DNA from: Hyphomicrobiales bacterium
GTDB taxonomy: Bacteria > Pseudomonadota > Alphaproteobacteria > Rhizobiales > Rhizobiaceae
DNA length: 64,000 nucleotides
Direction: 5' to 3'
NCBI GenBank assembly: GCA_900472605.1
Contig: UCJD01000020.1
Coordinates: 1 to 64,000 of the forward strand
Shown here: positions 14,470-53,339 of the stretch, piece after piece
Layout: every line of letters begins with the position of its first letter
Position numbering within the stretch: position 1 is the first letter of the stretch
The notes under the pieces: generated by a model
Told to the model about the DNA's origin: nothing
The model's input: only the letters and a program-made list of their open reading frames with translations
Database searches by the model: none
Position numbers and translations under genes: made by a program

Positions 14470-15141
14470 TCAGGTGCTCCGCCTGACATGCTGAAAAGCC
14501 GCGAGAACGGATCGCTCCGAGCGCACGAGATAGGCGTCCAGTTGCTTCGACGCAGCGTCAGTGTCGCCGGCCTCCAACGACGCGAGAATCTCTCCGTTCA
14601 ATGCAATGTAGGGGGCATGGAGATGGGCGGTGTCCTCGAACTGAGCGAACACCAATCGAAGTTCCGCCAGGACAAGTTCAAAGCACGCGCTTAATCGTGG
14701 GCTATCGCATAGCTCCACCATCGAACGATGAAACTCCATGTTGATCGTGCCCACGCTTCGCCAGTCGCCGGCGTCTCGCGAGGCCTCGGCTCGGGCCAGG
14801 AGCTCCCTCATGCGCCCCAATGCGGGGTGCGTGGCAAGAGCGGCACGAACAGCACCTTTCTGGATGACATGCCTCACCCTGTAGATATCCACGACCGATG
14901 CCTCGCCCGGCGTTGCGACAAAAACCCCGCGGTTGGGTATGTGCACCAGCAGATTCTGGCTCGTCAGCAGCCGGAATATTTCGCGTAGCGTGTTGCGCGA
15001 GATACCGAAGTGGCTAGCGATCTGCTGTTCGGAAAGCTTTGCGCCCGGCGCGAGTTCACCGGAGATCAGCATGCCGCGGATTCTTCCGGCAATCTGCGCC
15101 GTCAGCGGCTCGTCTTCCATCTCACCAATCGCAGCACACAT
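14470..15141 (-). CDS. GntR family regulator (FCD subfamily), divergent from pxpA
   Basis: 223 residues from the ATG at 15141 with AAGGG 8 bases upstream; in-frame GTG and TTG codons lie just before it. An N-terminal winged HTH contains HFGISRNTLREIFRLL, and the C-terminal all-helical FCD domain has the metal-type histidines (MEFHRSMVELCDSPRL, HAPYIALN). It is transcribed away from pxpA across a 180-bp gap that holds two copies of the motif ATTGTTCAAYAAW. It shares the recognition-helix sequence SRNTLRE with the GntR at 22297, so the two probably bind the same operator. Effector unknown; 5-oxoproline or the true substrate of the adjacent enzymes is a reasonable guess. Confidence 0.9.
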   Translation of the reverse strand: MCAAIGEMEDEPLTAQIAGRIRGMLISGELAPGAKLSEQQIASHFGISRNTLREIFRLLTSQNLLVHIPNRGVFVATPGEASVVDIYRVRHVIQKGAVRAALATHPALGRMRELLARAEASRDAGDWRSVGTINMEFHRSMVELCDSPRLSACFELVLAELRLVFAQFEDTAHLHAPYIALNGEILASLEAGDTDAASKQLDAYLVRSERSVLAAFQHVRRST

Positions 15142-15250
15142 CACCAACGCCCTTTTTCCATTTGTTCAAGACACCATATCGAAACGCAGCGCATAAGAGG
15201 CGGATATGGCGCCTGCTCCAGACGCACGTTCAAAAATTTGCCTGCGAGAT

Positions 15251-15285
15251 ATTGTTCAACAATAAATATTCCTTTATTGAACAAT
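15251..15285. promoter_or_regulatory. Two operator copies (ATTGTTCAAYAAW) between gntR and pxpA
   Basis: ATTGTTCAACAAT at 15251-15263 is a perfect 6-1-6 palindrome. A second copy, ATTGTTCAATAAA, is on the minus strand at 15273-15285. Their centres are 22 bp apart, two helical turns, so two dimers could bind on one face. They lie 37-70 bp upstream of pxpA and about 110-130 bp upstream of the divergent gntR start. Confidence 0.7.
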
Positions 15286-15321: not shown

Positions 15322-16092
15322 ATGGCGGCAATCGATCTGAACAGCGATCTCGGTGAGGGCTTCGGCCCATGGCCGATGGGTGACGACGCCGCGATGCTGG
15401 CGACGGTGACCAGCGCCAATATCGCCTGCGGCTTTCACGCCGGCGATCCCTCGGGAATCCTGACGGTGCTCAGGGAAGCAACGCGGCGGGGCGTGGCCGT
15501 CGGCGCCCATATCGGTTACCGCGATCTGGTCGGCTTCGGCCGCCGCAACATGGATCCATCGAGCGCCGAACTCGTTGGCGATACGATCTACCAAATCGGC
15601 GCCCTGCAGGGGCTGGCGAAAGCGGCGGGAACGAAGGTGCGCTACGTGAAGCCGCATGGCGCGCTCTACAACACCATCGCCCATGACGCCCGTCAGGCCG
15701 CCGACGTCATCGAAGGCATCAAGTCCGTTGATCCGAGCCTCGTGCTTATGGCACTGGCCGGCGCGCCGATCGTAGCACAGGCCCGCGAAGCCGGGCTGAC
15801 CGTCGTTTGCGAAGCCTTCGCCGACCGCGCCTATAACGTCGACGGCAGCCTCGTCAGCCGCCGGCTTCCCGGCTCGGTGATCCACGATCCTGAGGCCGTT
15901 GCCGAGCGCATGCTGCGCATGGTGAACGAGCAGCGCGTGGTGGCGATCAACGGAAGCGAGATTGCGCTCGATGCGCAGTCGATCTGCATTCATGGCGACA
16001 CGCCGGCCGCGGTCGCGATCGCACGCACGCTCCGGCAGACGCTGGAAGCCCGTGGCGTCGAACTCAAGTCCTTCGTCGATATGTCGTCATGA
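15322..16092 (+). CDS. pxpA: LamB/YcsF family protein, 5-oxoprolinase subunit A
   Basis: 256 residues, full length. Family motifs are all present: [11 protein letters not shown] near the N-terminus, [28 protein letters not shown] and KPHGALYN. In the PxpABC enzyme this subunit acts with PxpB and PxpC in ATP-dependent opening of 5-oxoproline to glutamate. It overlaps the next gene by ATGA, and a biotin carboxylase follows in the same operon, so the substrate may be 5-oxoproline or another lactam/amide. SD GGAG lies ahead of the ATG. Confidence 0.9.
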
Positions 16093-17720
16093 GCGAGCGC
16101 CTGCGTTTCCTGCCCTCCGGCAGCGACAGTTTCCTCGTCGAACTCGATGATCTCGCAGCCACCCTGACCGTGCTCGACACCCTCCTGGCAGCAAAGCTCG
16201 AAGGTGTGCGCGAAGTCATCCCGGGCGCGCGCACTGTCATGGTGCGCTTCGATCCGTGCCTGACGAGCGCGGCAGGGCTGTACGACAAGATCGCCGCACT
16301 CGACCTCTCGACGCGCTCCTCCCGGGGCGGCGAACTCTACGAGATCCCAGTCGCCTATGATGGCGAAGACCTTGGCGATGTCGCCGAAATGCTTGGCTGC
16401 ACCATTCAAGAGGTCATCCAGCGCCACACCGAGGCGACCTACACCGTCGCGTTCACCGGCTTTGCCCCCGGCTTCGCATACATGACCTCAGACGATCCCC
16501 GTTTCGACGTGCCGCGCCGAAAGAGCCCAAGGGTGAAAATTCCCGCCGGCTCGGTCGCCATCGCCGGCAAATTCGGCGGTATCTATCCGTCAGACAGCCC
16601 CGGCGGCTGGCAGCTGCTCGGCAAGACGCCGCTCGCGATGTGGGACACGACACGGGAACGCGCCGCGCTACTGGCGCCCGGCGACCGCGTTCGTTTTCGC
16701 GACATCGCCAAGAGCGCTGTCGTCCCGGTGTCAGCGCCCAAGCTGTTCGTCGATGAGGTTTCACCACAGAAGGCCGGATTGCTCGTCACCCGCGCGGATC
16801 GTCCGGCGCTGTTCCAGGACCTCGGCCGACCAGGCCTTGCAAGCCAGGGCGTCTCGGAATCCGGCGTGCTTGATCGCACGGCCATGATCGCGGCCAATCG
16901 CTGTCTCGGAAATCCGCGCGATGCCGCCGTGGTCGAAGTGCTCTTCGGGGGCTTTGCCTTCAAGGCCGATCGACCGATCACCGTCGCCGTAACCGGCGCC
17001 CCCTGCCCGCTGACGATCCGCACGGCGGCTGGCGGCGAGAGCAGCGCAAGTTTCGCAAGCCCGATTGCCCTTGATGCCGACGACGAACTGGTGCTCGGCA
17101 TTCCCCCCGAGGGCATGATGAGCTACCTCGCACTGCGTGGCGGCTTCGAGGTCCAAAAGGTTCTCGGCTCGGTGGCCACAGACACGCTTGCCAAGGTCGG
17201 CCCGGCGCCGATCGCAGCCGGCGATGTCCTTGTGCCCGCCGAGCGGCGAGCGCTCGCGGTCGCGCAAGCCGAAGCCGAACAGCGGCGCCTGCCGCGCGCC
17301 GGTGACGTCGTCACGCTCGATATCGTGCTTGGCCCGCGCACGGACTGGTTCACGCAACAGGGCGTCGCGACGCTGACCTCGCAGGAATGGAACGTGACGC
17401 CAGAATCCAGCCGCGTCGGCATGCGGCTTTCCGGCAAGGATGCCATCGCGCGTTCCGACAATGCGGAGCTCCCGTCTGAAGGCACCGCGCTTGGCGCGAT
17501 CCAGGTGCCGCATAGCGGGCAGCCGGTGCTCTTCCTTGCCGATCACCCCTTGACGGGCGGCTACCCCGTCATTGGCGTGGTCGCCAGCCACCATCTCGAC
17601 CTCGCCGGCCAGATCCCGATCGGCGCCCGTATCCGTTTCAATCCGATCTCCGCCTTCGAGCCACGCGAGGTCATCGCCGGCGCGGATGCTGCCTCGGCAC
17701 AGAGCCAGACAGGACACTGA
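16089..17720 (+). CDS. pxpBC: Fused 5-oxoprolinase subunits B and C (KipI-KipA; urea-carboxylase CT-like)
   Basis: 543 residues. Residues 1 to about 222 are PxpB/KipI (CT_C_D, formerly AHS1): [11 protein letters not shown] at 122-132 and [16 protein letters not shown] with [12 protein letters not shown] at 152-181. Residues about 230-535 are PxpC/KipA (CT_A_B, formerly AHS2): [35 protein letters not shown], and near the end [14 protein letters not shown]. These two domains are usually separate genes; fusion guarantees equal amounts. The same pair forms the carboxyltransferase of urea carboxylase, which matters because a biotin carboxylase-BCCP gene follows 4 bp downstream. The start overlaps the pxpA stop. 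Confidence 0.92.
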
Positions 17721-17724
17721 TTTC

Positions 17725-19437
17725 ATGAAAAAGCTGCTCATTGCCAATCGCGGCGAAATCGCCATCCGCATCACCCGCGCCGCCCGCGACTATGGTGTCG
17801 CCTCCGTTGCGATCTATTCGGATGCCGACGCCAACTCGCTGCATGCCGAACTTGCCGACGAAGCCTATGGCCTCGGCGCCGGGCGCCCTGCAGACACCTA
17901 TCTGAACATCGAGAAGATCCTCGAAATCGCAAAACGCGCCGGCGCCGACGCCGTGCACCCGGGCTATGGCTTCCTCTCGGAACGCGCCGAATTCGCGCAG
18001 GCGGTCATCGACGCCGGCCTGATCTGGGTCGGTCCCGCGCCTGATGTTATCAGGGCGCTCGGCGACAAGGTCGAAGCGCGACGCATTGCCGAAAGCGTCG
18101 GCGCCCCGCTGGTGAAGGGCTCCGACGGCTCGCTGGCCTCGGCAGCCGAAGCCGTTGCATTCGCCCGCGAGGCCGGATTGCCGCTGGCGATCAAGGCCGC
18201 ATTCGGCGGCGGGGGGCGCGGCATGAAGGTGGCGCACAATATCGACGAAGTCGGCGAGCTCTTCGATTCCGCCGTTCGCGAGGCCGTCGAGGCCTTCGGC
18301 CGTGGCGAATGCTACGCCGAGCAATTCCTCGAAAAGCCGCGCCACATCGAAGCGCAGGTGATCGCCGACAGCCACGGCAATACTGTCGTCCTCGGCACCC
18401 GTGACTGCTCGCTGCAGCGCCGCAACCAGAAACTCGTCGAAGAGGCGCCTGCTCAGTTCATCACCGAGGATCAGCGCCAGCGCATCCATGATGCCGCCCG
18501 CGCGATCTGCGCCAAGGCTGGCTACACCGGTGCCGGCACGGTTGAGTTCCTGCTCTCGGAGAACGGCACGATCTCCTTCCTCGAGGTCAACACGCGCTTG
18601 CAGGTCGAGCATCCGGTGACCGAGGAGACCACCGGCATCGATATCGTCATTGAGCAGTTGCGGATCGCCGATGGCGAACCGCTGTCGGTGACGGATACGC
18701 CGAAGCCGCGCGGCCACGCCTTCGAGTTCCGTATTAATGCGGAAGATCCCGGCCGCGGCTTCCTGCCGACGCCAGGCCTGATCACCCGCTTCCGCGCACC
18801 TTCCGGTCCCGGCATCCGTCTCGACACGGGCGTCGAAACCGGCTCGGAAATCCCCGGCCTCTACGATTCCATGATGGCGAAGCTAATCGTCACGGGCGCC
18901 ACGCGTGAGGAAGCGCTTGCTCGCGCCTGCCGCGCTCTGACCGAGTTCCGGATCGAGGGCGTGGCGTCCGTTCTGCCCTTCCACCGCGCCGTTCTCGAGG
19001 AAAAGGACTTTACCGGCGAAGATGGTTTCAAGGTCTTCACCAACTGGATCGAGACCGAATTCCGTGGCGTCGCCTCGTCGCCGAGGATCGAGCCCGCCGA
19101 GGGCGGCCTGCTGCGCAGCTTCATCGAGATCGACGGCAAGCGCCACGAGATCGGCTTGCCGGCGGCACTGTTTTCCGGCCTCGCCGTCGCCCCGCAGACC
19201 GCAGCGCCGCAGGCATCCCAGAGCCATGAGGGCGCGGTTGTCGCGCCCATTCCGGGCACCTTCCGGCAGTGGCTGGTGGAAGACAATGCGACGGTTGCAG
19301 AAGGCGAGATCGTCGCCGTGATCGAGGCCATGAAGATGGAGACACGCGTCGCCGCGCCCAAGGCGGGCACGATCAAGCTCAGCGCCAAGGTAGGCGACAG
19401 CGTCGCGCTCGGCGCGGAGCTGGCGATCATCGCGTAA
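17725..19437 (+). CDS. Biotin carboxylase-BCCP fusion protein
   Basis: 570 residues from the ATG at 17725, 4 bp after pxpBC. Residues 1 to about 450 are a biotin carboxylase: [21 protein letters not shown], the glycine-rich ATP-grasp loop [12 protein letters not shown], and [15 protein letters not shown] biotinyl domain occupies about 495-570, with EAMKMET placing the biotinylated lysine at K537. The pair would charge biotin with CO2 using ATP. No acyl-CoA carboxyltransferase gene is present; the only carboxyltransferase-like partner is the KipI-KipA fusion upstream. Compared with acetyl-CoA carboxylase it is an AccC and a biotinyl domain in one chain, as in acyl-CoA and urea carboxylases. 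A strong terminator follows. Confidence 0.9.
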
Positions 19438-19520: not shown

Positions 19521-21017
19521 TCAGCTCTGCCGCATGAACTGCTGGATGCGGCTGTCGGCTGGCGAGCTCTCCAGCTCGCCCGCGGTCATGTTGACCACGA
19601 CGTGGCCGTTTTCCATCATCACGACGCGGTCGCTGACGCGGCTGACGAAGCGCATTTCGTGGGTGACGATGACCATCGTCATGCCCTCGCTGGCGAGACC
19701 CTCGATGACCTGCAGCACTTCGCCGACCAGTTCCGGATCGAGCGCCGAAGTCGGCTCGTCGAACAGCATGATCTCAGGATCCATGGCAAGCGCGCGGGCG
19801 ATGGCCACGCGTTGCTTCTGGCCGCCCGATAGCTGGTGCGGATACTTGTTGGCATGCGCCGCAAGGCCAACACGAGCGAGATGGTTCATCGCCGCCGCGC
19901 GCACAGCTTGCTTGTCGCGATTGCCGTGATAGCGCGGACCGAACGTCACGTTTTCCAGCGCCGTCATGTGCGGGAAGAGGTTGAACGACTGGAATACCAT
20001 GCCGAGACAGGTGACCCGATGATGGAAATCGGGAACCATACGGTACCCCTTGGCGTCGGCCGTGATCCATTCGTTTCCATCGAGGGTGATGCGACCGTTG
20101 TCGATGTCCTGCAGCGCGTTGATTGTGCGGATGAGCGTCGTCTTGCCGGAGCCCGACGGGCCGATGATGCTGAGCACTTCGCCCTTGCGCACCTGAAGCG
20201 ATACGTCTGCCAACGCCCGCTTGTCCCCGAAGCTCTTGGTTATACCGTCGATGCCGACCACGACCTCTTCACCGACACGGCGTTCAGTGCCATTGGTGCT
20301 TGCCTGGGCGACGGCCGCAGGGACGGCGATCTCGGCGCCGGTCATCCTGGAGATGTCGAGACGTCCTTCAAGGCGCGACAGGAAGAAGCTGAAGATCGAG
20401 ACCACGAGCACATAGTAGAACGACACGGCCACAAGCGTTTCGATGACCATGAAGTTGCGGGTGTAAAGCCGCTGGCCGACAAGCAGGATTTCCGCGAGCG
20501 AGATGACGGACACGAGCGAGGTCAGCTTGACGATGGTGATGAACTCGTTGCCAAGCGAGGGCAGCGCCACGCGGATCGCCTGCGGCAGGATGATATGCCG
20601 GTATTTGCCGACGGGGCGAACGCCGAGAGCGTGTGCCGCTTCCTGCTGCCCCTGATCGACGGCGATGAGACCGGCGCGATGGATTTCCGCGAGATAGGCC
20701 GTCTCGGATATCACCAGCGCGATCAGACCAGCCCAGAAGGGCACAGACAGCACCGGCCCGAGCGCCGGCATGAACTGCGGCATATTGTAAACGAAAATCA
20801 GCAGCACCAGCAGCGGCAGGCTGCGAAAGAGCCAGATATAGGTTTTCGCGAACCACCGCACCGCTCGCAGGCTCGATTGCCGCGCGAGCGCCAGAAGGAA
20901 GCCGAGCACGGTGCCGATGACCCAAGTCAGCACGCCGAGCCACGCAACAAGCGCCGTGGCGCGCCAGAAGTCCGGATAAAGGACGAGGCTGAAGAGGTAG
21001 TTCCAGTCGAAGTTCAT
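19521..21017 (-). CDS. Fused polar amino acid ABC transporter permease-ATPase
   Basis: 498 residues. Residues 1 to about 225 are a HisM/GlnP-type permease with the EAA loop (QQEAAHALGVRPVGKY). After a linker (about 225-255), residues 255-498 are a GlnQ-type ATPase: Walker A GPSGSGKTT, signature LSGGQKQRVAIARAL, Walker B IMLFDEPTSALDPE. Joining permease and ATPase in one chain means one gene can supply a symmetric transporter. The binding protein is encoded 95 bp upstream on the same strand, with a stable hairpin in the gap. Location beside pxp genes suggests import of a lactam or amino acid used by that pathway; this is inference. Confidence 0.9.
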   Translation of the reverse strand: MNFDWNYLFSLVLYPDFWRATALVAWLGVLTWVIGTVLGFLLALARQSSLRAVRWFAKTYIWLFRSLPLLVLLIFVYNMPQFMPALGPVLSVPFWAGLIALVISETAYLAEIHRAGLIAVDQGQQEAAHALGVRPVGKYRHIILPQAIRVALPSLGNEFITIVKLTSLVSVISLAEILLVGQRLYTRNFMVIETLVAVSFYYVLVVSIFSFFLSRLEGRLDISRMTGAEIAVPAAVAQASTNGTERRVGEEVVVGIDGITKSFGDKRALADVSLQVRKGEVLSIIGPSGSGKTTLIRTINALQDIDNGRITLDGNEWITADAKGYRMVPDFHHRVTCLGMVFQSFNLFPHMTALENVTFGPRYHGNRDKQAVRAAAMNHLARVGLAAHANKYPHQLSGGQKQRVAIARALAMDPEIMLFDEPTSALDPELVGEVLQVIEGLASEGMTMVIVTHEMRFVSRVSDRVVMMENGHVVVNMTAGELESSPADSRIQQFMRQS

Positions 21018-21112: not shown

Positions 21113-21898
21113 TTATTGCCCGACAGCAGCCTTGAATTCGGTCTCCGTCGATTTCGCCACACCGTACTTGGCAAACACGGCCTCGTAATCGGCATCGCCA
21201 TCAAGCTTCGCCAGCGTATCGCGCAGGAAGGACGCAACCTCAGTGTTGCCCTTCTTCACGCCGAAGCCGACGATGACGGGGTACAGCTGTTGGGTGGAGG
21301 TAACCTTCAGACGACCGTTCAGCTTCTTGGCGGCGTTGGCGAGCACCGCCGAGTTTTCCAGTTGGGCATCCACGCCGCCGGACATCACAGCCTGCGTCGC
21401 TTCAGGAGATGTTGGAAATTCGCGCGAATCGATTGGGCTGGCGGCGCAAACCGACGCGTTCAACTTCTCGAGTTCGGGGATCCAGGCCGCTCCCTTGATC
21501 GAGCCGACGCGCTTGCCGCAAAGCTCTTCCGGCTTGGTGAAGCTCTGGCCGCCGGCGGCCGAAACCGCGATCGAGACGCCCGTCTTCATGTAGGGGATGT
21601 AGTCGATCTGCTTGGCGCGCGCGGCCGTCACGTAGAGCGTGGAGGCGATGACGTTGAACTGATCGCTGGAGACGCCGAGGATGAGGTTTTCGAAACGGGT
21701 GTCATGAAAGGAAACGTCACTGCCGGTCTTCTTGCCGATCAGCTTCATCAGCTCGACGTCGAAGCCCGCAGGCTGGTTGGCGTCGTCGAAGTAGTTGTAG
21801 GGCGGGTAGGTGAGATCGACACCGATCTTCAGCGTTTCCGCATGGGCCGCCGTCAGGGGCGCCGCCAACATGATGAGACTGGCAAGGAGTTTTTTCAT
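21113..21898 (-). CDS. Amino acid ABC transporter substrate-binding protein (SBP_bac_3)
   Basis: 261 residues with a clear signal peptide (MKKLLASLIMLAAPLTAAHA). The mature part is a type 3 solute-binding protein: KIGVDLTYPPYNYFDDANQP, GFDVELMKLIGKKTG and SMI-like lobe residues through the C-terminal KYGVAKSTETEF. It captures the ligand in the periplasm for the fused transporter downstream. A copy of the ATTGTTCAACAAA motif (minus strand, 21928-21940) lies 30 bp upstream of its start, so it is probably under the same GntR control as pxpA. Ligand unknown; 5-oxoproline or a related lactam or ureido acid is a testable guess. Confidence 0.9.
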   Translation of the reverse strand: MKKLLASLIMLAAPLTAAHAETLKIGVDLTYPPYNYFDDANQPAGFDVELMKLIGKKTGSDVSFHDTRFENLILGVSSDQFNVIASTLYVTAARAKQIDYIPYMKTGVSIAVSAAGGQSFTKPEELCGKRVGSIKGAAWIPELEKLNASVCAASPIDSREFPTSPEATQAVMSGGVDAQLENSAVLANAAKKLNGRLKVTSTQQLYPVIVGFGVKKGNTEVASFLRDTLAKLDGDADYEAVFAKYGVAKSTETEFKAAVGQ

Positions 21899-22296
21899 GG
21901 ACTGTTCCTCTCGATTGATGGCTCATTTTTGTTGAACAATTATAAGATTGCAATCCCCTTCGATGCATAAAGTTTCATCAAGGGGCGGATTACGTGCAGA
22001 TCAACTATCCGCGCGCCACGGACAGCGCTTGACGCGCGGCGGACAAGCGACTGAAATAACGAGGCAAGATGAGCTATCCCGGCATCAGCATGCCGATACC
22101 CCGAAAAACGCACCTCAACAGCCCGCCTAGTTCTAAAGCGGCAGGCACTGAAATCCGACGATCAAGGAATGCGCAGCCTACCGCCCATACACCTTGGAAA
22201 ACTCCCCCGCCTAAACGCAGACACCGAGGCATGCGCAGCACCCTCTCTTGACATGCGGAATTTGTTCAACAAAAATAACTCACCAAGGAGACCATA
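21899..22296. promoter_or_regulatory. Divergent promoter region with two operator copies
   Basis: This 398-bp gap separates the binding-protein gene (-) from the second gntR (+). Near each end is one copy of the shared motif: 21928-21940 (ATTGTTCAACAAA on the minus strand), 30 bp from the binding-protein ATG, and 22261-22273 (TTTGTTCAACAAA), 23 bp from the gntR start. The middle (about 21950-22250) has no convincing gene; a 60-codon frame there is not supported by an SD or family match. Confidence 0.65.
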
Positions 22297-23001
22297 TTGA
22301 CCAACCAGAATCCCCCCGACCGACCTCTCGTCCTGACGCAGACCGCCGCCGGCCTGCTGCGCGACAAGATTCTGCGTGGCGAGCTTGCGCCCGGCGCACC
22401 GCTGCGCGAAGTCGTGTGGGCGGAGGCGCTGAACGTTTCGCGCAATACGTTGCGCGAGGCGCTGCGGGATCTGGTTGCCGAAGGCTTGATCGAACATCGC
22501 GCCCATTACGGCGCGACGGTACGGGCGCTGAACTCTACCGAGATCAGCGAGATCTACGCGATCCGCATGACGCTCGAACTGCGCGGCGTCACCTGCAGCG
22601 CCTACGCCTCGCAGGAAGCGATGTCGGAACTCGTCGCCCGCGTCGAAGCCGTGCAGCGCGCCGCCCTTGCCAAGGATTGGCAGCAGTGCGGCACCGCATC
22701 GCTGGAGTTTCACCAGCAGATCGTCGATTTCATCGGCAGCCCGCGGCTGAACGACGTGTTCGCGACCGTCGCCGCACAGGCCCGCCTCGCCTTCTCGATG
22801 GCGCCCGATGCCCGCCGATTCCAGGAGCCGTGGGTGGCGCGCGACGTCGAGATCTGCGGCCTTCTTTGCGACGGTGATCGCGCCGCTGCGAGCCGTGCGC
22901 TTGAACTCTACCTGCAGGAATCCGAACGCGTGGTGCTGGAAGCCGCCCGCGCGCAGAACCTGCCCCGCCCCAGCAAAACGTTGGCGGGGCCCGCCGACTA
23001 G
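22297..23001 (+). CDS. GntR family regulator (FCD subfamily), second copy in the pxp region
   Basis: 234 residues starting at a TTG with a perfect AAGGAG six bases upstream; no better in-frame ATG exists near the HTH. The winged HTH (about 10-75) contains ALNVSRNTLREALRDL. The FCD domain follows (IYAIRMTLELRGVTC, LEFHQQIVDFIGSPRL). The recognition helix SRNTLRE equals that of the GntR at 14470-15141, and its own promoter carries the same operator, suggesting autoregulation and cross-talk. It is followed by the DUF1989 gene 38 bp downstream on the same strand. Confidence 0.9.
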   Translation: MTNQNPPDRPLVLTQTAAGLLRDKILRGELAPGAPLREVVWAEALNVSRNTLREALRDLVAEGLIEHRAHYGATVRALNSTEISEIYAIRMTLELRGVTCSAYASQEAMSELVARVEAVQRAALAKDWQQCGTASLEFHQQIVDFIGSPRLNDVFATVAAQARLAFSMAPDARRFQEPWVARDVEICGLLCDGDRAAASRALELYLQESERVVLEAARAQNLPRPSKTLAGPAD

Positions 23002-23039: not shown

Positions 23040-23900
23040 ATGAAGCCCCAGCCCATTACCACCGCACCGGAAGACGCAGCGAGCCGCAAGGCGATCAAGC
23101 CGGTCATCTGTTACCCCGTCGAAACGCTGCCGCGCCCCGACCTTGCGGCATACCGTGCGTTGCGCGACGATTTGGAGTTCGTCGAGCGTGTGGTCGTGCC
23201 GCCGCGCGATGCCGCCTGCTGGACTGTGCCAGCAGGGCATTTCTGCCGCATCCTCTCCAGCGAAGGCTCGCAGGTGGGCGATCTGAACCTCTTCAATGCC
23301 AACAATCTTGAGGAAAGGCTCTTCACCGGCAAGACCCGGGCTCTCAACGGTACGCATGTCGGCCTTGGCGACCAGCTCTTCTCCAATATGCCGTATCTGC
23401 GCCCGATCGCGACGATCACCCACGACACGCTGGACTGGTACGGCTTCGACGAATTCGGCGGTTCGGTACACGACGTGATCGGCACGCGCTGCGATCCCTA
23501 CACGCACAACCTCCTGAGCAACGGCGGACAGTATCACCACTGCTGCCACTCCAACCTGACCCGCGCCTTCTCGGCGCAGAGCGGCAAATCGCTACAGGAG
23601 GCCGGCACCTACATTCACGACGTGCTCAACGTCTTCATGTGCACCGGTTTCACACGCGACACCGGCCAATACTTCATGAAGGCAAGCCCGGTTCGCCCCG
23701 GTGATTATCTCGAATTCTTCGCCGAGATCGACCTCCTCGGCTGCATGTCGGCCTGCCCCGGCGGCGATTGCTCCTCCGAGCATTCCTCGGATGCCGTCGC
23801 CTGCTATCCGCTGGTGGTCGAGATCTACAAGCCGGCTCGTAACCCGGAAGGCTGGAGCGCGCCGGAGGTCAATGGCTACGACGGTACGCACGGGCTCTGA
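23040..23900 (+). CDS. DUF1989 (urea carboxylase-associated) family protein
   Basis: 286 residues. The conserved DUF1989 core covers about 50-270: VPPRDAACWTVPAGHFCRIL, GSQVGDLNLFNANN, LFSNMPYLRPIATI and GTRCDPYTHNLL. It is rich in possible metal ligands: YHHCCHSNL (about 162-170) and MSACPGGDCSSEHSSD (about 236-251). Relatives occur as pairs beside urea carboxylase and in amino-acid/amide utilisation clusters; their reaction is not firmly established. Here it follows gntR as the likely target gene. Its association with a biotin carboxylase and KipI-KipA domains a few kb away fits a urea-carboxylase-like context. A terminator follows. Confidence 0.85.
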   Translation: MKPQPITTAPEDAASRKAIKPVICYPVETLPRPDLAAYRALRDDLEFVERVVVPPRDAACWTVPAGHFCRILSSEGSQVGDLNLFNANNLEERLFTGKTRALNGTHVGLGDQLFSNMPYLRPIATITHDTLDWYGFDEFGGSVHDVIGTRCDPYTHNLLSNGGQYHHCCHSNLTRAFSAQSGKSLQEAGTYIHDVLNVFMCTGFTRDTGQYFMKASPVRPGDYLEFFAEIDLLGCMSACPGGDCSSEHSSDAVACYPLVVEIYKPARNPEGWSAPEVNGYDGTHGL

Positions 23901-25522: not shown

Positions 25523-26002
25523 ATGAACATTCGTGTCGCCAACGGCGATATTTCCGACCAGGTGCGTGACATCGTCGATCGTCTGAAGACGCTCGAAGGG
25601 CCAATGCTGCCGATCCTTCACGAAATCCAGGCGGTATTCGGCTATGTACCGCAGGAGGCACTGCCCATCATCGCGCAGGGGCTCAACCTGTCGCGGGCCG
25701 AAGTCCACGGTGTCGTTACCTTCTATCACGACTATCGCAATCACCCGGCCGGCCGGCACGTGCTGAAACTCTGTCGCGCCGAATCCTGTCAGTCGATGGG
25801 CGGAGACCGTCTGGCAGAGCGGGTGAAAGCCGTTCTCGGCATCGACTGGCATGGCACCACCGCTGACGCGGCAATCACGCTAGAACCGGTGTTCTGTCTC
25901 GGGCTCTGTTCCTGCTCGCCGTCCGCGATGATGGACGGCGAGGTGCATGGCCGGGTCGATTTCGCCGACATCGAGGAGATGATTGCGGAGGCACGGCGAT
26001 GA
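25523..26002 (+). CDS. fdsG: NAD-dependent formate dehydrogenase gamma subunit
   Basis: 159 residues from the ATG at 25523, with GGAGGG upstream; the longer frame to 25436 lacks an SD. It is a NuoE-like thioredoxin-fold protein with one [2Fe-2S] cluster, ligands C84, C89 (CRAESCQSMG) and C125, C129 (CLGLCSCSPSAMM). It works with FdsB to pass electrons from formate to NAD+. It overlaps fdsB by ATGA. Confidence 0.93.
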   Translation: MNIRVANGDISDQVRDIVDRLKTLEGPMLPILHEIQAVFGYVPQEALPIIAQGLNLSRAEVHGVVTFYHDYRNHPAGRHVLKLCRAESCQSMGGDRLAERVKAVLGIDWHGTTADAAITLEPVFCLGLCSCSPSAMMDGEVHGRVDFADIEEMIAEARR

Positions 26003-27555
26003 GCGTCCGGATCTATGTCCCGCGCGATGCAGCCGCGCTGGCGCTCGGCGCCGACAAGGTTGCGGCTGCGGTTGCCAAGGAGATTGCCGATCGCAATCTT
26101 GATGCTGTCATCGTGCGCAACGGTTCGCGCGGCATGCACTGGTTGGAGCCGCTGATTGAGGTCGAGGTTGGCGGCGAGCGAATCGGCTATGGCCCAGTGA
26201 AGGCGCGGGATGTCGCAGCATTGTTCGATGCAGGGCTGATATTGGGCGGAGATCACGGGCTCTGTCTTGGCGCGGTCGAGGAGATCGCGTTTCTCAAACG
26301 ACAGACACGGCTGACCTTCGCGCGTTGCGGTGTGATCGATCCGTTGTCGCTCGGCGACTACGAGGCGAATGGCGGACTTTCCGGCTTGCGCCGCGCCTTG
26401 GCCATGCAGCCTGTCGATATCGTCAAGGACGTGACCGATTCCGGTCTGCGCGGACGCGGCGGCGCGGGGTTCCCGACCGGCATAAAATGGAAGACCGTGC
26501 TGGAGACACCGGGTGCGCGCAAATATATCGTCTGCAATGCCGACGAGGGCGACAGCGGTACCTTTGCCGACCGGATGATCATGGAGGGCGATCCCTTCGT
26601 GCTAATCGAGGGCATGGCGATCGCGGGGCTCGCGACCGGTGCCACCAAGGGTTTCGTCTACATCCGCTCGGAATATCCGCATGCGATAGCCGCTATGACC
26701 GAGGCGGTGGAGATCGCGGGACGCGCCGGCGTGCTCGGGCCATCGGTGCTCGGCTCGGGCAAGGCATTCGAGATCGAGATCCGCACCGGCGCCGGCGCCT
26801 ATGTCTGCGGCGAGGAAACGGCGCTATTGAACAGCCTCGAGGGCAAGCGCGGCATCGTGCGCGCCAAGCCGCCATTGCCGGCGCACAAGGGCCTTTTCGA
26901 CTGTCCCACCGTCATCAACAACGTGATCTCGCTCGCATCCGTCCCTGTCATTATGGACAAGGGCGCCGCCTATTATCGCGATTTCGGCATAGGCCGCTCG
27001 CGCGGCACGATCCCACTACAGATCGCTGGCAATGTGAAGCATCCCGGTCTGTATGAGGTGGCCTTCGGGCTGACGCTCGGCGAAATCATCGACGAGATCG
27101 CAGGCGGGACGGCCTCGGGGCGACCGGTCAAGGCGGTCCAGGTGGGGGGGCCGTTGGGGGCCTATTTCCCGCGGGAGCTTTTCGACACACCGTTCGATTA
27201 CGAGGCCTTTGCCGCCAGGGACGGGCTGATCGGCCATGCCGGGATCGTCGTCTTCGACGACAGCGCGGACATGCTGAAGCAGGCGCGGTTTGCGATGGAG
27301 TTCTGCGCGGTGGAAAGCTGCGGCAAATGCACACCTTGCCGTATCGGCTCGACGCGCGGGGTGGAGACGGCCGACAAGATCGCGTTGGGGATCGAACCGG
27401 AGAAGAACCGGGCGCTGCTCACTGATCTCTGCAACACGATGAAGTTCGGTTCGCTCTGCGCCTTGGGTGGGTTCACGCCCTATCCCGTATTGAGCGCGAT
27501 GACGCATTTTCCGGATGATTTTGCGCCGAGGCCGATGGTGGAGGCTGCGGAATGA
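25999..27555 (+). CDS. fdsB: NAD-dependent formate dehydrogenase beta subunit (NADH/FMN site)
   Basis: 518 residues. A short NuoE-like N-terminal domain (1-120) precedes a NuoF domain: GRGGAGFPTGIKW for FMN/NADH, AGAYVCGEETALLNSLEGKR, an SLBB segment, and ESCGKCTPCRIGS for the [4Fe-4S] cluster near residue 440. It oxidises the electron chain and reduces NAD+. Its stop overlaps an ATG at 27552, as the fdsG/fdsB junction does, but the frame that follows reads into an inverted-repeat element rather than fdsA; fdsA restarts at 27784. Confidence 0.95.
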   Translation: MSVRIYVPRDAAALALGADKVAAAVAKEIADRNLDAVIVRNGSRGMHWLEPLIEVEVGGERIGYGPVKARDVAALFDAGLILGGDHGLCLGAVEEIAFLKRQTRLTFARCGVIDPLSLGDYEANGGLSGLRRALAMQPVDIVKDVTDSGLRGRGGAGFPTGIKWKTVLETPGARKYIVCNADEGDSGTFADRMIMEGDPFVLIEGMAIAGLATGATKGFVYIRSEYPHAIAAMTEAVEIAGRAGVLGPSVLGSGKAFEIEIRTGAGAYVCGEETALLNSLEGKRGIVRAKPPLPAHKGLFDCPTVINNVISLASVPVIMDKGAAYYRDFGIGRSRGTIPLQIAGNVKHPGLYEVAFGLTLGEIIDEIAGGTASGRPVKAVQVGGPLGAYFPRELFDTPFDYEAFAARDGLIGHAGIVVFDDSADMLKQARFAMEFCAVESCGKCTPCRIGSTRGVETADKIALGIEPEKNRALLTDLCNTMKFGSLCALGGFTPYPVLSAMTHFPDDFAPRPMVEAAE

Positions 27556-27579
27556 CGAGGGGTGCATTGAACGCCTATT

Positions 27580-27735
27580 CCTCTCCGCAACCCCTCCCCA
27601 CAAGGGAGAGGGGCTTAGAATGCCGCGCCCTTCCCATTCCAGTCCCAACGCGTCCACATGCGGGAGAGCCGCTGCAGTGCGATAACCGCGCCGCAGTGAA
27701 GCCCCTCCCCCTTGTGGGGAGGGGTTGGGGAGGGG
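27580..27735. repeat. Rhizobial intergenic inverted-repeat element (RIME-like) inside the fds operon
   Basis: A left arm at 27580-27616 and a right arm at 27699-27735 are 37-bp inverted copies with about three mismatches. Both contain the core CCCCTCCCCACAAGGG. An 82-bp spacer lies between. Composition (poly-pyrimidine/purine) and placement between genes fit the rhizobial intergenic mosaic elements. The RNA would fold into a very strong hairpin between fdsB and fdsA. An 82-codon frame runs through it but is not a credible gene. Confidence 0.8.
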
Positions 27736-27783
27736 CCTTAACGCCATCCGCTACAGCAACTCATTCTTCTACGGAGGCAAACC

Positions 27784-30663
27784 ATGTCCCTCGTTCATGA
27801 AATCGACTACGGCACGCCGGCCTCCGCCTCCGAGACCATGGTGACGCTTACCATCGACGGCAACGAAATCACGGTGCCCGAGGGCACTTCCATCATGCGC
27901 GCATCGATGGATGCGGGCATCGAGATCCCGAAACTCTGCGCCACCGACATGATCGACGCCTTCGGCTCCTGCCGGCTCTGTCTTGTCGAGATCCAGGGAC
28001 GCAACGGCCTACCCGCATCTTGCACCACACCTGTCGCGGCGGGCATGGTGGTGTCGACGCAGACGAACCGGCTCAAGGATGTGCGTCGCGGCGTGATGGA
28101 GCTCTATATCTCCGACCATCCGCTCGACTGTCTCACCTGCGCCGCCAACGGCGATTGCGAGTTGCAGGACATGGCGGGCGCCGTTGGCTTGCGTGATGTG
28201 CGCTACGGCTATGACGGCGACAACCACGTCAAGGCGCGCGACAACGGCGGGCTCAATGCCAAATGGGCGCCGAAGGATGAGAGCAACCCCTATTTCACCT
28301 TCGATCCGGCCAAATGCATCGTCTGTTCGCGTTGCGTGCGCGCGTGCGAAGAGGTCCAGGGCACGTTTGCGCTGACCATCGGGGGTCGTGGCTTCGATTC
28401 CCGCGTCTCGGCCGGCATGCACGAGGATTTCGTGTCATCGGAATGCGTCTCCTGCGGCGCCTGCGTGCAGGCCTGCCCGACTGCGACGCTGACCGAGAAG
28501 TCGGTGATCGAAATCGGCCAGCCGGAGCATTCGGTGGTCACCACCTGCGCCTATTGCGGCGTCGGCTGTTCGTTCAAGGCAGAGATGCGCGGCGAGGAGC
28601 TGGTGCGCATGGTGCCGTGGAAAGATGGACAGGCGAACCGCGGGCACTCCTGCGTCAAGGGCCGCTTCGCCTACGGCTATTCCAGCCACAAAGACCGCAT
28701 TCTCAATCCGATGGTACGCGAGAAGATCACCGATCCCTGGCGCGAGGTGACATGGGACGAGGCCTTCGCGCACGTCGCCTCCGAGTTCCGGCGCATCCAG
28801 TACCAGTATGGGCGCGATTCGATCGGCGGCATCACATCCTCGCGCTGCACCAATGAGGAGACCTATCTTGTGCAGAAGCTGGTGCGCGCCGGCTTCGGCA
28901 ACAATAACGTCGACACCTGCGCCCGCGTATGCCATTCGCCGACAGGCTACGGCCTCGGCCAGGCCTTCGGCACGTCGGCAGGCACGCAGAACTTCGACAG
29001 CGTCGAGAAAAGCGATGTCGTCGTCATCATTGGCGCCAACCCGACGGATGGGCATCCTGTCTTCGGCTCGCGGCTGAAGAAGCGCTTGCGGCAGGGCGCC
29101 AAGCTGATCGTCATCGATCCGCGCAGGACCGATATCGTGCGCTCGCCGCATGTCGAGGCAGCCTATCACCTGCCGCTGAAGCCCGGCACCAACGTCGCGG
29201 TCATGACCTCGCTTGCGCATGTGATCGTCACCGAGGGGCTGTTCGATGAGCGCTTCATTCGCGAGCGCTGCGACTGGTCGGAGTTCGAGGACTGGGCGGC
29301 CTTCGTCGCCGAACAACACCATAGCCCCGAGGCGACCGAGGCGCTGACCGGCGTGCCGGCGGAAATGCTGCGCGGTGCTGCCCGTCTCTACGCCACCGGC
29401 GGCAATGGCGCGATCTATTACGGCCTTGGCGTCACCGAGCACAGCCAGGGTTCGACGACGGTCATGGCGATCGCGAACCTTGCGATGGTCACGGGCAATA
29501 TCGGTCGTCCCGGCGTCGGCGTGAATCCGCTGCGCGGCCAGAACAATGTGCAGGGCTCCTGCGACATGGGCTCGTTCCCGCACGAACTGCCGGGCTATCG
29601 CCATGTCTCCGACGACGCGACGCGCGATATCTTCGAGAAGCTCTGGGGCGTGAAGATCAGCGACGAGCCGGGCCTGCGTATTCCCAACATGCTGGATGCC
29701 GCCGTCGACGGCTCCTTCAAGGGGCTCTATGTCCAGGGCGAGGATATCCTCCAGTCCGATCCCGACACCAAGCATGTGGCGGCGGGTCTCGCGGCGATGG
29801 AATGCGTCGTGGTCCACGATCTATTCCTGAACGAGACGGCGAACTACGCGCATGTCTTCCTGCCGGGCTCGAGCTTCCTGGAAAAGGATGGCACCTTCAC
29901 CAATGCCGAGCGACGCATCAACCGCGTGCGCAAGGTGATGAGCCCGAAGAACGGCTATGCCGACTGGGAGGTGACGCAGAAGCTGGCGCAGGCGATGGGG
30001 CTTGCGTGGAATTACCGGCATCCGTCCGAAATCATGGACGAGATCGCCGCGACGACGCCGAGCTTCGCGATGGTATCCTACGATTATCTGGAGAAGATGG
30101 GTTCGGTGCAGTGGCCGTGCAACGAGGCGCACCCACAGGGATCGCCAATCATGCATGTCGATGGCTTCGTGCGTGGAAAAGGCAAGTTCATCCGCACCGA
30201 GTATGTCGCCACCGACGAACGCACCGGCCCGCGCTTCCCGCTGCTTTTGACGACGGGGCGCATTCTCAGCCAGTATAATGTCGGAGCGCAGACGCGGCGC
30301 ACCGAGAATGTCGTCTGGCACTCGGAAGACAGGCTGGAGGTCCATCCGCACGACGCCGAACAGCGCGGCATTCGCGACGGGGACTGGGTGAAGCTCATGA
30401 GCAGGTCCGGGGATACCACGCTGCGCGCCCTGATCACCGATCGCGTCTCGCCCGGCGTGGTCTACACGACGTTCCACCATCCGGACACGCAGGCCAACGT
30501 GATCACCACCGACTTCTCCGACTGGGCAACCAACTGTCCCGAGTACAAGGTGACCGCCGTCCAGGTCTCACCGTCCAATGGCCCGACGGACTGGCAGGTC
30601 GAATACGACGAGCAGGCGCGGCAAAGCCGCCGCATCTCTGGCAAGCTCGAAGCGGCGGAGTAA
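27784..30663 (+). CDS. fdsA: NAD-dependent formate dehydrogenase alpha subunit (molybdenum catalytic subunit)
   Basis: 959 residues; SD GGAGG seven bases before the ATG. Order of domains: NuoG-like [2Fe-2S] (CRLCLVEI), His/Cys cluster (HPLDCLTCAANGDCELQ), two [4Fe-4S] (CIVCSRCVRACEE; CVSCGACVQACP), then the MopB catalytic domain with its own [4Fe-4S] (CAYCGVGCSFKAE ... HSCVKGR) and the Mo-ligand Cys-His pair at C383-H384 (ARVCHSPTGYG). It oxidises formate to CO2 at a bis-MGD molybdenum centre and feeds electrons to FdsG/FdsB. The enzyme is cytoplasmic and oxygen-tolerant in relatives. Confidence 0.96.
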   Translation: MSLVHEIDYGTPASASETMVTLTIDGNEITVPEGTSIMRASMDAGIEIPKLCATDMIDAFGSCRLCLVEIQGRNGLPASCTTPVAAGMVVSTQTNRLKDVRRGVMELYISDHPLDCLTCAANGDCELQDMAGAVGLRDVRYGYDGDNHVKARDNGGLNAKWAPKDESNPYFTFDPAKCIVCSRCVRACEEVQGTFALTIGGRGFDSRVSAGMHEDFVSSECVSCGACVQACPTATLTEKSVIEIGQPEHSVVTTCAYCGVGCSFKAEMRGEELVRMVPWKDGQANRGHSCVKGRFAYGYSSHKDRILNPMVREKITDPWREVTWDEAFAHVASEFRRIQYQYGRDSIGGITSSRCTNEETYLVQKLVRAGFGNNNVDTCARVCHSPTGYGLGQAFGTSAGTQNFDSVEKSDVVVIIGANPTDGHPVFGSRLKKRLRQGAKLIVIDPRRTDIVRSPHVEAAYHLPLKPGTNVAVMTSLAHVIVTEGLFDERFIRERCDWSEFEDWAAFVAEQHHSPEATEALTGVPAEMLRGAARLYATGGNGAIYYGLGVTEHSQGSTTVMAIANLAMVTGNIGRPGVGVNPLRGQNNVQGSCDMGSFPHELPGYRHVSDDATRDIFEKLWGVKISDEPGLRIPNMLDAAVDGSFKGLYVQGEDILQSDPDTKHVAAGLAAMECVVVHDLFLNETANYAHVFLPGSSFLEKDGTFTNAERRINRVRKVMSPKNGYADWEVTQKLAQAMGLAWNYRHPSEIMDEIAATTPSFAMVSYDYLEKMGSVQWPCNEAHPQGSPIMHVDGFVRGKGKFIRTEYVATDERTGPRFPLLLTTGRILSQYNVGAQTRRTENVVWHSEDRLEVHPHDAEQRGIRDGDWVKLMSRSGDTTLRALITDRVSPGVVYTTFHHPDTQANVITTDFSDWATNCPEYKVTAVQVSPSNGPTDWQVEYDEQARQSRRISGKLEAAE

Positions 30664-52562: not shown

Positions 52563-53339
52563 TCAGGAAGCAGCGCGAGCGATATTGCTCGCCGGCCACT
52601 CTTCAACTGCAATCTCCCCAAACGCGTTCAGCGCCGTGCAGACGAAATGCGACAGCTTGTCGTGCCGGATAACGGCGGCGCTCAGACGACCGCTCCTGTA
52701 GGCCGCAGTATCGAGCGCGATACGGTTGTCATAGACCTCGGGACGCAGTGAGTTTGTGATCGTGTGGCCATGCACGACCATATGATCGAACGGATCGATG
52801 TGGTCGAGAAAGCCCGCCCGGATCCAACGCAGGTCATATTCGTCTTGTTGAACCAACGAAAGACCAGGCCGAATTCCGGCATGCACGAAACAGAAGCTGC
52901 CCATCTCCTTGTAGGCCAGCGCGTTATCGAGCAAAGCGGAATGATGCGGGAAGGCATCCCGGATGTCCGCGGCAATCCCCTTGAAGTCCGGCACCGGCCG
53001 CCGGGAGTAAGCGCTGACAGTTGCCATTCCTCCCCAATCCATCCAGTTGACGGCGTCAGCGGGAGACAATTCCTCGCGAAGCAACGAGCGCAGATAGAAG
53101 TCGTGGTTGCCGAGGATGAGATGCGAACCGGGATACTGCTCAAGTGCCGAGGCTACAAGATCAAGCACAGCAGGGCTCCGCGGGCCTCTGTCGATCAGAT
53201 CGCCCAGAAAAATCACGATAGGCTTCGATCGGCGCTCCGCGGAGACGGTGGCGATATGTCGGAGCAGAACCTCAAGCAGATCAGCACGTCCATGAATGTC
53301 GGCAACTGCATAGATATCGGACGGCGCATGATCTGTCAT
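52563..53339 (-). CDS. Metallophosphoesterase (PPP-type serine/threonine phosphatase-like)
   Basis: 258 residues from the ATG at 53339. The three dinuclear-metal motifs are intact: ADIHGR at 13-18, GDLIDRG at 46-52 and GNHD at 77-80, with later histidines in CFVHAG and VVHGHTI. It is the size of bacterial PrpA-like diadenosine-tetraphosphatase/protein phosphatases. No neighbour suggests a partner. Cytoplasmic; substrate unknown. Confidence 0.88.
   Translation of the reverse strand: MTDHAPSDIYAVADIHGRADLLEVLLRHIATVSAERRSKPIVIFLGDLIDRGPRSPAVLDLVASALEQYPGSHLILGNHDFYLRSLLREELSPADAVNWMDWGGMATVSAYSRRPVPDFKGIAADIRDAFPHHSALLDNALAYKEMGSFCFVHAGIRPGLSLVQQDEYDLRWIRAGFLDHIDPFDHMVVHGHTITNSLRPEVYDNRIALDTAAYRSGRLSAAVIRHDKLSHFVCTALNAFGEIAVEEWPASNIARAAS

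Follow-up and report, generated by a model that had tools for sequence, protein, structure and literature searches.

A KipI-KipA fusion protein and its biotin carboxylase partner in a Rhizobiaceae operon: a likely biotin-dependent 5-oxoprolinase

The best described relatives of the operon discussed here are 5-oxoprolinases of the PxpABC type, known from Escherichia coli, Bacillus subtilis and Corynebacterium glutamicum (pxpTABC). Passages of PMC13274462 present PxpABC as the 5-oxoprolinase type of most surveyed prokaryote genomes, state that 5-oxoproline arises spontaneously from glutamate and glutamine, and report that C. glutamicum requires pxpTABC for growth on 5-oxoproline. They also describe the GntR repressor PxpR, whose dissociation constant (KD) for 5-oxoproline is 726 nM and whose tested site is agattgttcaacaatct. 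The other close system is urea carboxylase (TIGR02712; structures 5i8i and 3va7), which joins four functional units, biotin carboxylase (BC), biotin carboxyl carrier protein (BCCP), CT_A_B and CT_C_D, in one chain of about 1200 amino acids (aa). The operon lies in a 64,000-nucleotide stretch of a Hyphomicrobiales bacterium (Rhizobiaceae; assembly GCA_900472605.1, contig UCJD01000020.1), hereafter the window. It encodes PxpA, a KipI-KipA (PxpB-PxpC) fusion called KipIA, and a BC-BCCP fusion, and its product is likely a biotin-dependent 5-oxoprolinase.

All three genes are on the forward strand. PxpA, the proposed ring-opening hydrolase, is encoded at 15322-16092 (256 aa; LamB/YcsF, PF03746, 336.6 bits). 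KipIA, the proposed carboxyltransferase (CT), is encoded at 16089-17720 (543 aa) and has the Pfam domains CT_C_D at residues 6-195 (210.9 bits) and CT_A_B at residues 254-519 (270 bits). BC-BCCP, at 17725-19437 (570 aa), has four Pfam domains over their cut-offs: Biotin_carb_N, CPSase_L_D2, Biotin_carb_C and Biotin_lipoyl, the last at residues 505-569. The reading frames of PxpA and KipIA share 4 bp, and 4 bp separate the KipIA stop from the BC-BCCP start codon. An initial annotation, made from the letters alone, had described these genes as one tight operon with a BCCP lysine at position 537; the genes were found as described, and the AMKM lysine, predicted to be biotinylated, is residue 537 (codon 19333-19335, forward strand). 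BC-BCCP has a 10-residue motif at 287, keeps the usual BC motifs and, with a BC domain and a BCCP carrying the AMKM lysine, has the general features of a biotin-dependent carboxylase. Assignment by curated NCBIfam models is less specific. PxpA passes the subfamily model NF003814 (377.9, cut-off 226) and scores below the cut-off of each of the equivalog models NF003812, NF003813 and NF003815. KipIA falls below the equivalog-level models of PxpB (TIGR00370, 136.1 vs 145.55) and PxpC (NF045499, 162.8 vs 500), and the sole PxpBC-type model that it passes is TIGR00724, the 5-oxoprolinase/urea amidolyase family (235.8 vs 230.2).

Like the described PxpABC enzymes, the operon has PxpA, PxpB/PxpC-type subunits and the core of the PxpR operator, and many of its relatives have neighbours of the D-glutamate cyclase family and of the Nramp/YcsG type. 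It departs from the described enzymes, for which phosphorylation of the substrate is the current assumption, in its fused PxpB-PxpC and its dedicated BC-BCCP. The four units of urea carboxylase are all present but are divided between two chains, CT_C_D-CT_A_B and BC-BCCP; the base lysine is replaced by arginine, PxpA is added, and no allophanate hydrolase was seen in the operon. The initial annotation had counted every domain of a urea carboxylase except the allophanate hydrolase. The units are there, but the exception was misplaced, since passages of PMC5770610 treat allophanate hydrolase as the partner of urea carboxylase in urea amidolyase and not as its domain. Urea carboxylase membership was itself considered and rejected: there are two chains, and neither KipIA (148.2) nor BC-BCCP (519.8) reaches the TIGR02712 cut-off of 1303.85.

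How could such a set of proteins open 5-oxoproline? From the partnership of BC, KipIA and PxpA and from the shared operator, both seen by comparison, we infer the following chemistry. BC-BCCP would use ATP and bicarbonate to form carboxybiotin on Lys537, and the carrier domain would swing to KipI-KipA. There the carboxyl group would be transferred to 5-oxoproline, most simply to the ring nitrogen. The N-carboxylated lactam would be activated, PxpA would hydrolyse the ring, and the resulting carbamate would lose CO2 to give glutamate. Import of the substrate may be the task of an amino-acid-type ABC transporter, and the regulon would be under a GntR repressor of the PxpR kind. The net cost would be one ATP with bicarbonate recycled, a stoichiometry equal to that of a phosphorylating oxoprolinase, and ordinary assays in air would therefore not tell carboxylation from phosphorylation. 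A biotin-dependent lactam or amide carboxylase-hydrolase had been proposed for this locus at the outset. That proposal gains from the BC-BCCP partnership and from a member of the same clade found on an AccA3 complex, and it loses in that the clade does not keep the general-base lysine of the urea-carboxylase CT.

The partnership was followed in 299 genomes of a phylum survey. CT_A_B is present in 102 of them, and 98 places with an open reading frame shorter than urea carboxylase were fetched, the window's own being excluded and three CT_A_B fragments (G004, two of G277) left out. All 11 fused KipIA loci have PxpA and a BC-BCCP fusion, and a BC is also found at 12 of the 87 split loci. A reverse search with BC-BCCP in the 299 genomes (E<=1e-160, four candidates scored per genome) gave 13 places in 12 genomes, the window included, each of them (13/13) beside a CT_A_B place of the window's clade. 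A scan of species genomes, with an alignment of ten fused, BC-linked sequences as query (A1), gave 566 confirmed relatives. In the best 80, which span Rhizobium, Pseudomonas, Cupriavidus, Photorhabdus and others, KipIA is always fused, BC-BCCP lies downstream of it in 79, PxpA is present in 78 and the full set in 77; at L212 and L214 PxpA is absent from the fetched stretch. The distance from the KipIA stop to the BC domain has a median of 14 bp (range -1 to 295, n=79). The co-occurrence for which the initial annotation had suggested a genome survey is found in both directions within the window's clade. BC-BCCP is a near-constant partner of the window's type of KipI-KipA, in a gene arrangement far beyond chance, and the BC-KipIA-PxpA partnership is well supported.

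The same grouping is seen in trees. For KipIA, the fused group and L082 form one clade with a BC in 13/13 and a Shimodaira-Hasegawa-like approximate likelihood ratio (SH-aLRT) support of 100. The BC-linked KipIA lineages branch nearest the urea carboxylases, with outgroup rooting and long branches. In the BC tree, the operon rows (13 of the 80 scan loci, all 11 fused loci of the survey, L082 and the window) also form one clade, 26/26 with SH-aLRT 100. This clade is separate from the AccC, the two alpha subunits and the pyruvate carboxylases of the same genome, and from the urea carboxylases.

A relative of the window's KipIA has been captured with a BC-BCCP protein. MSMEG_0435-0436 of Mycobacterium smegmatis falls in the window's KipIA clade (14 rows, support 100), and Thermus TTHA0988 groups next to the BC-less locus L139. 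By its title and chain names, PDB entry 9yx5, 'Structure of the long chain acyl-CoA carboxylase complex from Mycobacterium smegmatis with MSMEG_0435-MSMEG_0436 bound', contains the MSMEG_0435-0436 chains together with AccA3. The best PDB relatives of the window's BC-BCCP over its full length are the mycobacterial AccA3 proteins (693 bits; next 442). The M. smegmatis system (9yx5, 3mml) resembles the window in having a PxpB-PxpC pair of the same clade and, in AccA3, the closest solved BC-BCCP relative. It differs in having an unfused PxpB and PxpC and a BC-BCCP that belongs to an acyl-CoA carboxylase complex. Among the matches listed in literature searches there was no paper describing 9yx5, and a passage of a 2015 M. 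smegmatis study enters MSMEG_0435-0436 as allophanate hydrolase (PMC4617892).

An AlphaFold model of KipIA (31 sequences, pLDDT 88.8, pTM 0.85) matches M. smegmatis 3mml with Z 37.7 (rmsd 1.6, 286 aligned), Thermus TTHA0988 with Z 35.7, E. coli YbgJK (5dud) with Z 33.0, Kluyveromyces lactis urea amidolyase 5i8i with Z 32.7 and urea carboxylase 3va7 with Z 24.7. By this model KipIA keeps the CT fold, in line with the earlier reading of KipI and KipA as the domains of the urea-carboxylase CT. At three positions the clade can be compared with the BC-less loci. KipI 162 is aromatic in the fused clade, in MSMEG_0435-0436 and in urea carboxylase, and Gln in 64/75 BC-less loci. KipA 487 is Pro in the same three and Gln in 62/75 BC-less loci. 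At KipA 367 the fused group, like the urea carboxylases, has Leu; MSMEG_0435 has Met and 49/75 BC-less loci have Arg.

The substrate is indicated by the operator. The pattern TTGTTNAACAA was derived from promoters of the window, independently of the published PxpR site. The gap between pxpA and a divergent GntR/FCD regulator gene (14470-15147, reverse strand; Pfam GntR 59.0 and FCD 60.4 bits) holds an exact PxpR-type operator, TTGTTCAACAA (core ATTGTTCAACAAT), at 15252-15262 and a second, TTATTGAACAA, with one mismatch at 15274-15284. Two more exact sites lie before a solute-binding protein gene (21929-21939) and before a second GntR gene (22262-22272). With up to one mismatch allowed, TTGTTNAACAA occurs five times in the window, against a mean of 0.5 in shuffled sequences, of which 0/100 reach five. 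Four of the five are in the operon region, and the fifth, with one mismatch, is at 52845. Exact matches number three in the 5.8-Mb genome, all at this locus, and the reversed control has none. The core of this predicted operator is identical in sequence to that of the tested C. glutamicum PxpR site, and the divergent regulator is a probable PxpR-like sensor with 5-oxoproline as its putative ligand. The exact operator recurs in 57 of the 80 scan loci (65 sites, 62 of them at most 500 bp upstream of a GntR homologue) and in 7 of the 11 fused survey loci. Among the other loci it is found in 1/12 BC-linked (L082, a clade member) and 3/75 BC-less ones, and the control pattern is found in none throughout. 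A GntR/FCD homologue is present in 68/80 scan loci.

By operator, the pxpA operon shares its regulon with the amino-acid-type ABC transporter, which consists of a fused permease-ATPase (19521-21017, reverse strand; BPD_transp_1, ABC_tran) and a family 3 solute-binding protein (21113-21898, reverse strand; SBP_bac_3, 97.4 bits). Genes of the D-glutamate cyclase family, an enzyme that makes 5-oxo-D-proline, are found in 40/80 scan loci and Nramp-type (PxpT/YcsG-like) transporter genes in 38/80. In the survey the D-glutamate cyclase family is found in 4/11 fused, 1/12 other BC-linked and 6/75 BC-less loci. Because the operator matches the PxpR site and these two neighbours recur, 5-oxoproline is likely the substrate, and it is the best-supported one. 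Among the substrates first listed for assay the operator favours 5-oxoproline, and urea, hydantoin and caprolactam are disfavoured.

Several observations weigh against a biotin-dependent 5-oxoprolinase. Phosphorylation of 5-oxoproline by PxpBC is the mechanism assumed in print (passages of PMC13274462). Of the 98 PxpBC loci surveyed, 75 lack a BC within about 6 kb, which shows that not every PxpBC depends on a linked one. A fused locus of a Rhodospirillaceae metagenome-assembled genome (MAG), L150, has PxpA and no BC in the fetched stretch. N_L059 and N_L070 group with BC-linked loci, yet the stretch fetched for each shows no BC. Five BC-linked loci (L056, L086, L091, L098, L113) are placed within a mostly BC-less part of the tree, and BC linkage has thus changed more than once. 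The other BC-linked loci resemble the fused clade only in part (Phe162 in 6/12, Pro487 in 2/12, Leu367 in 3/12), and the exact operator is absent from the fetched stretch in 23/80 scan and 4/11 fused survey loci. Binding to a long-chain acyl-CoA carboxylase complex in 9yx5 need not imply shared catalysis. Lastly, K1605 of K. lactis urea amidolyase (KlUA), considered in passages of PMC5770610 to be the general base of the urea-carboxylase CT, aligns with Arg143 of KipI. This position is Lys in 24/24 urea carboxylases and 6/12 other BC-linked loci, and Arg in 12/12 fused, the remaining 6/12 other BC-linked and 74/75 BC-less loci. Arg143 is thus evidence against an unaltered urea-carboxylase mechanism.

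Three of these points would be expected of an ordinary phosphorylating 5-oxoprolinase whose BC-BCCP is regulatory, accidental or in the service of an acyl-CoA carboxyltransferase elsewhere: the absence of a linked BC from most surveyed PxpBC loci, the printed assumption and the lysine to arginine change at the base all fit it. An accidental neighbour, however, would hardly be kept in 79/80 loci from Rhizobium, Pseudomonas and other genera or in 13/13 reciprocal pairs, and at KipI 162, KipA 367 and KipA 487 the clade resembles urea carboxylase and not most BC-less PxpBC. The whole genome (5.80 Mb, 92 contigs, the window lying on contig C64) was also searched. It gave a single CT_A_B match, KipIA, and a single LamB_YcsF match, PxpA. 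The acyl-CoA carboxyltransferase family PF01039 has four matches, on C33, C84, C39 and C44, and none on C64, in agreement with the earlier remark that no acyl-CoA carboxyltransferase is nearby. Five BCs were found besides that of the window. C66 has an AccC with an adjacent BCCP, and C36 and C74 each carry a pyruvate carboxylase. The other two are alpha subunits, one of 700 aa on C33, some 7 kb away from a PF01039 gene, and one of 642 aa on C84, directly behind another such gene. The C39 match is AccA and the C44 match is probably AccD. On C33 and C84 the only NCBIfam match of the carboxyltransferases is TIGR01117, under its cut-off, and the alpha subunits match general BC models only; by neighbourhood and size these enzymes are named propionyl- and methylcrotonyl-CoA-carboxylase-like. 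Since the five other BCs have other likely partners, no acyl-CoA carboxyltransferase is left without a BC, with the caution that the names come partly from neighbourhood. Service to a distant acyl-CoA carboxyltransferase, which the initial annotation had named as a finding that would overturn its proposal, was rejected on this count and because BC-BCCP lies in an operon-only clade of the sampled tree. The phosphorylating enzyme is accordingly considered unlikely.

It could also be that the same biotin-dependent machine acts on another lactam, a cyclic ureide or an amidine and that 5-oxoproline, if used at all, is a minor substrate. Behind the second GntR/FCD gene (22297-23001, forward strand, TTG start), and thus behind a regulon operator, lies a DUF1989 gene (23040-23900, forward strand; PF09347, 159.6 bits) whose protein is under the cut-offs of TIGR03424 and TIGR03425. 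DUF1989 is matched in 5/80 scan loci and stands directly behind BC-BCCP in the rhizobia L148, L152, L166 and L231. The family, whose name refers to urea amidolyase, includes carboxyguanidine deiminase, so the substrate of the DUF1989 protein may be N-carboxylated, either the main product or a side product. One Hydantoinase_B gene (PF02538) on C84 also fits another substrate and could belong to another lactamase or oxoprolinase. Set against these are the operator, which matches that of the 5-oxoproline-binding PxpR (passages of PMC13274462) and recurs in most scan loci, and the D-glutamate cyclase family genes in half of them. Another main substrate appears quite improbable. Least probable is an ATPase made up of BC-BCCP and KipIA, with 5-oxoproline phosphorylated or otherwise activated by carboxyphosphate or carboxybiotin and no stable N-carboxy intermediate; the replaced urea-carboxylase base means that the transfer chemistry may differ, but KipIA is predicted to keep the CT fold, the BC has its usual motifs and the BCCP its lysine, and no sign of a phosphoryl-transfer site was seen.

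If the large clade of the window does carboxylate 5-oxoproline, the published assumption about the mechanism does not hold there. A biotin-dependent 5-oxoprolinase would also be a new use of a urea-carboxylase-type CT, with a new substrate, and would account for the presence of a PxpB-PxpC pair on the M. smegmatis AccA3 complex. A more doubtful extension is that carboxybiotin is ancestral for the PxpABC family and is supplied by a dedicated BC-BCCP, by a separate BCCP and BC (Lactiplantibacillus) or by a shared AccA3 (mycobacteria), in which case BC-less PxpABC may use a housekeeping BC. On that view the 5-oxoprolinase of Pseudomonas putida, under study since the 1970s, would be a biotin enzyme that has gone unrecognised. 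Passages of PMC8453981 describe this two-component enzyme from Meister's laboratory with chains of 64 and 51 kDa in component A and a component B of 82 kDa. At 13 Pseudomonas scan loci, with script-chosen start codons, the predicted masses are 60.5-62.1 kDa for BC-BCCP, 55.2-57.2 kDa for KipIA and 26.8-27.4 kDa for PxpA. The chains of component A are thus near BC-BCCP and KipIA in size, and component B is near three PxpA (about 81 kDa). This rough fit is no more than suggestive of an operon of this type as the source of the P. putida enzyme.

In the literature searches, no statement of a biotin-dependent 5-oxoprolinase was found among the matches listed. Passages of a 2011 study note that split homologues of the urea-carboxylase CT are often encoded by adjacent genes, and give no functional data (PMC3199775). 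A 2025 Lactiplantibacillus pentosus paper mentions, in separate and unlinked passages, extra BCCP/BC genes and pxpB/pxpC (PMC12427679). Nothing on PxpBC was found in passages of PMC4347857, and nothing on a possible precedent, lamA/lamB of Aspergillus, among the matches listed or in passages of PMC8683493.

The full gene set is also carried by annotated plasmids of Klebsiella and R. gallicum. A plasmid of Lactiplantibacillus plantarum has the split order PxpB-PxpC-BCCP-BC-putative hydro-lyase-PxpA-NRAMP, one of Acidiphilium (L232) has PxpA-BCCP-BC-PxpB-PxpC, and one of Salinivibrio has PxpABC without a BC. Plasmid annotations label PxpC-type proteins 'biotin-dependent carboxyltransferase family protein'. 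Close behind the Acidiphilium operon is a biotin synthase gene, bioB (7036-8016 of L232), and beside the operon of Rhizobium gallicum two GntR genes flank a gene of the RidA family (4034-4435 of L231).

A few further observations concern single loci. Six loci (L057, L058, L061, L066, L069, L093) have split BCCP, BC, KipI and KipA genes and keep the urea-carboxylase base lysine in a PKY motif. The six BCs fall in a single clade, and in KipIA five of the loci group together with L093 apart; PxpA is beside four of them, L061 is at a contig end and L093 shows no PxpA. They possibly encode a biotin enzyme for another substrate. The KipIA of L150 is 65% identical to that of the window, a D-glutamate cyclase family gene is present there, and a BC may lie elsewhere in the MAG. 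The two pyruvate carboxylase genes on C36 and C74 are closely similar. Downstream in the window, the region 25999-30663 encodes a NuoF-like subunit and the alpha subunit of a formate dehydrogenase, a combination known from the soluble NAD-linked type.

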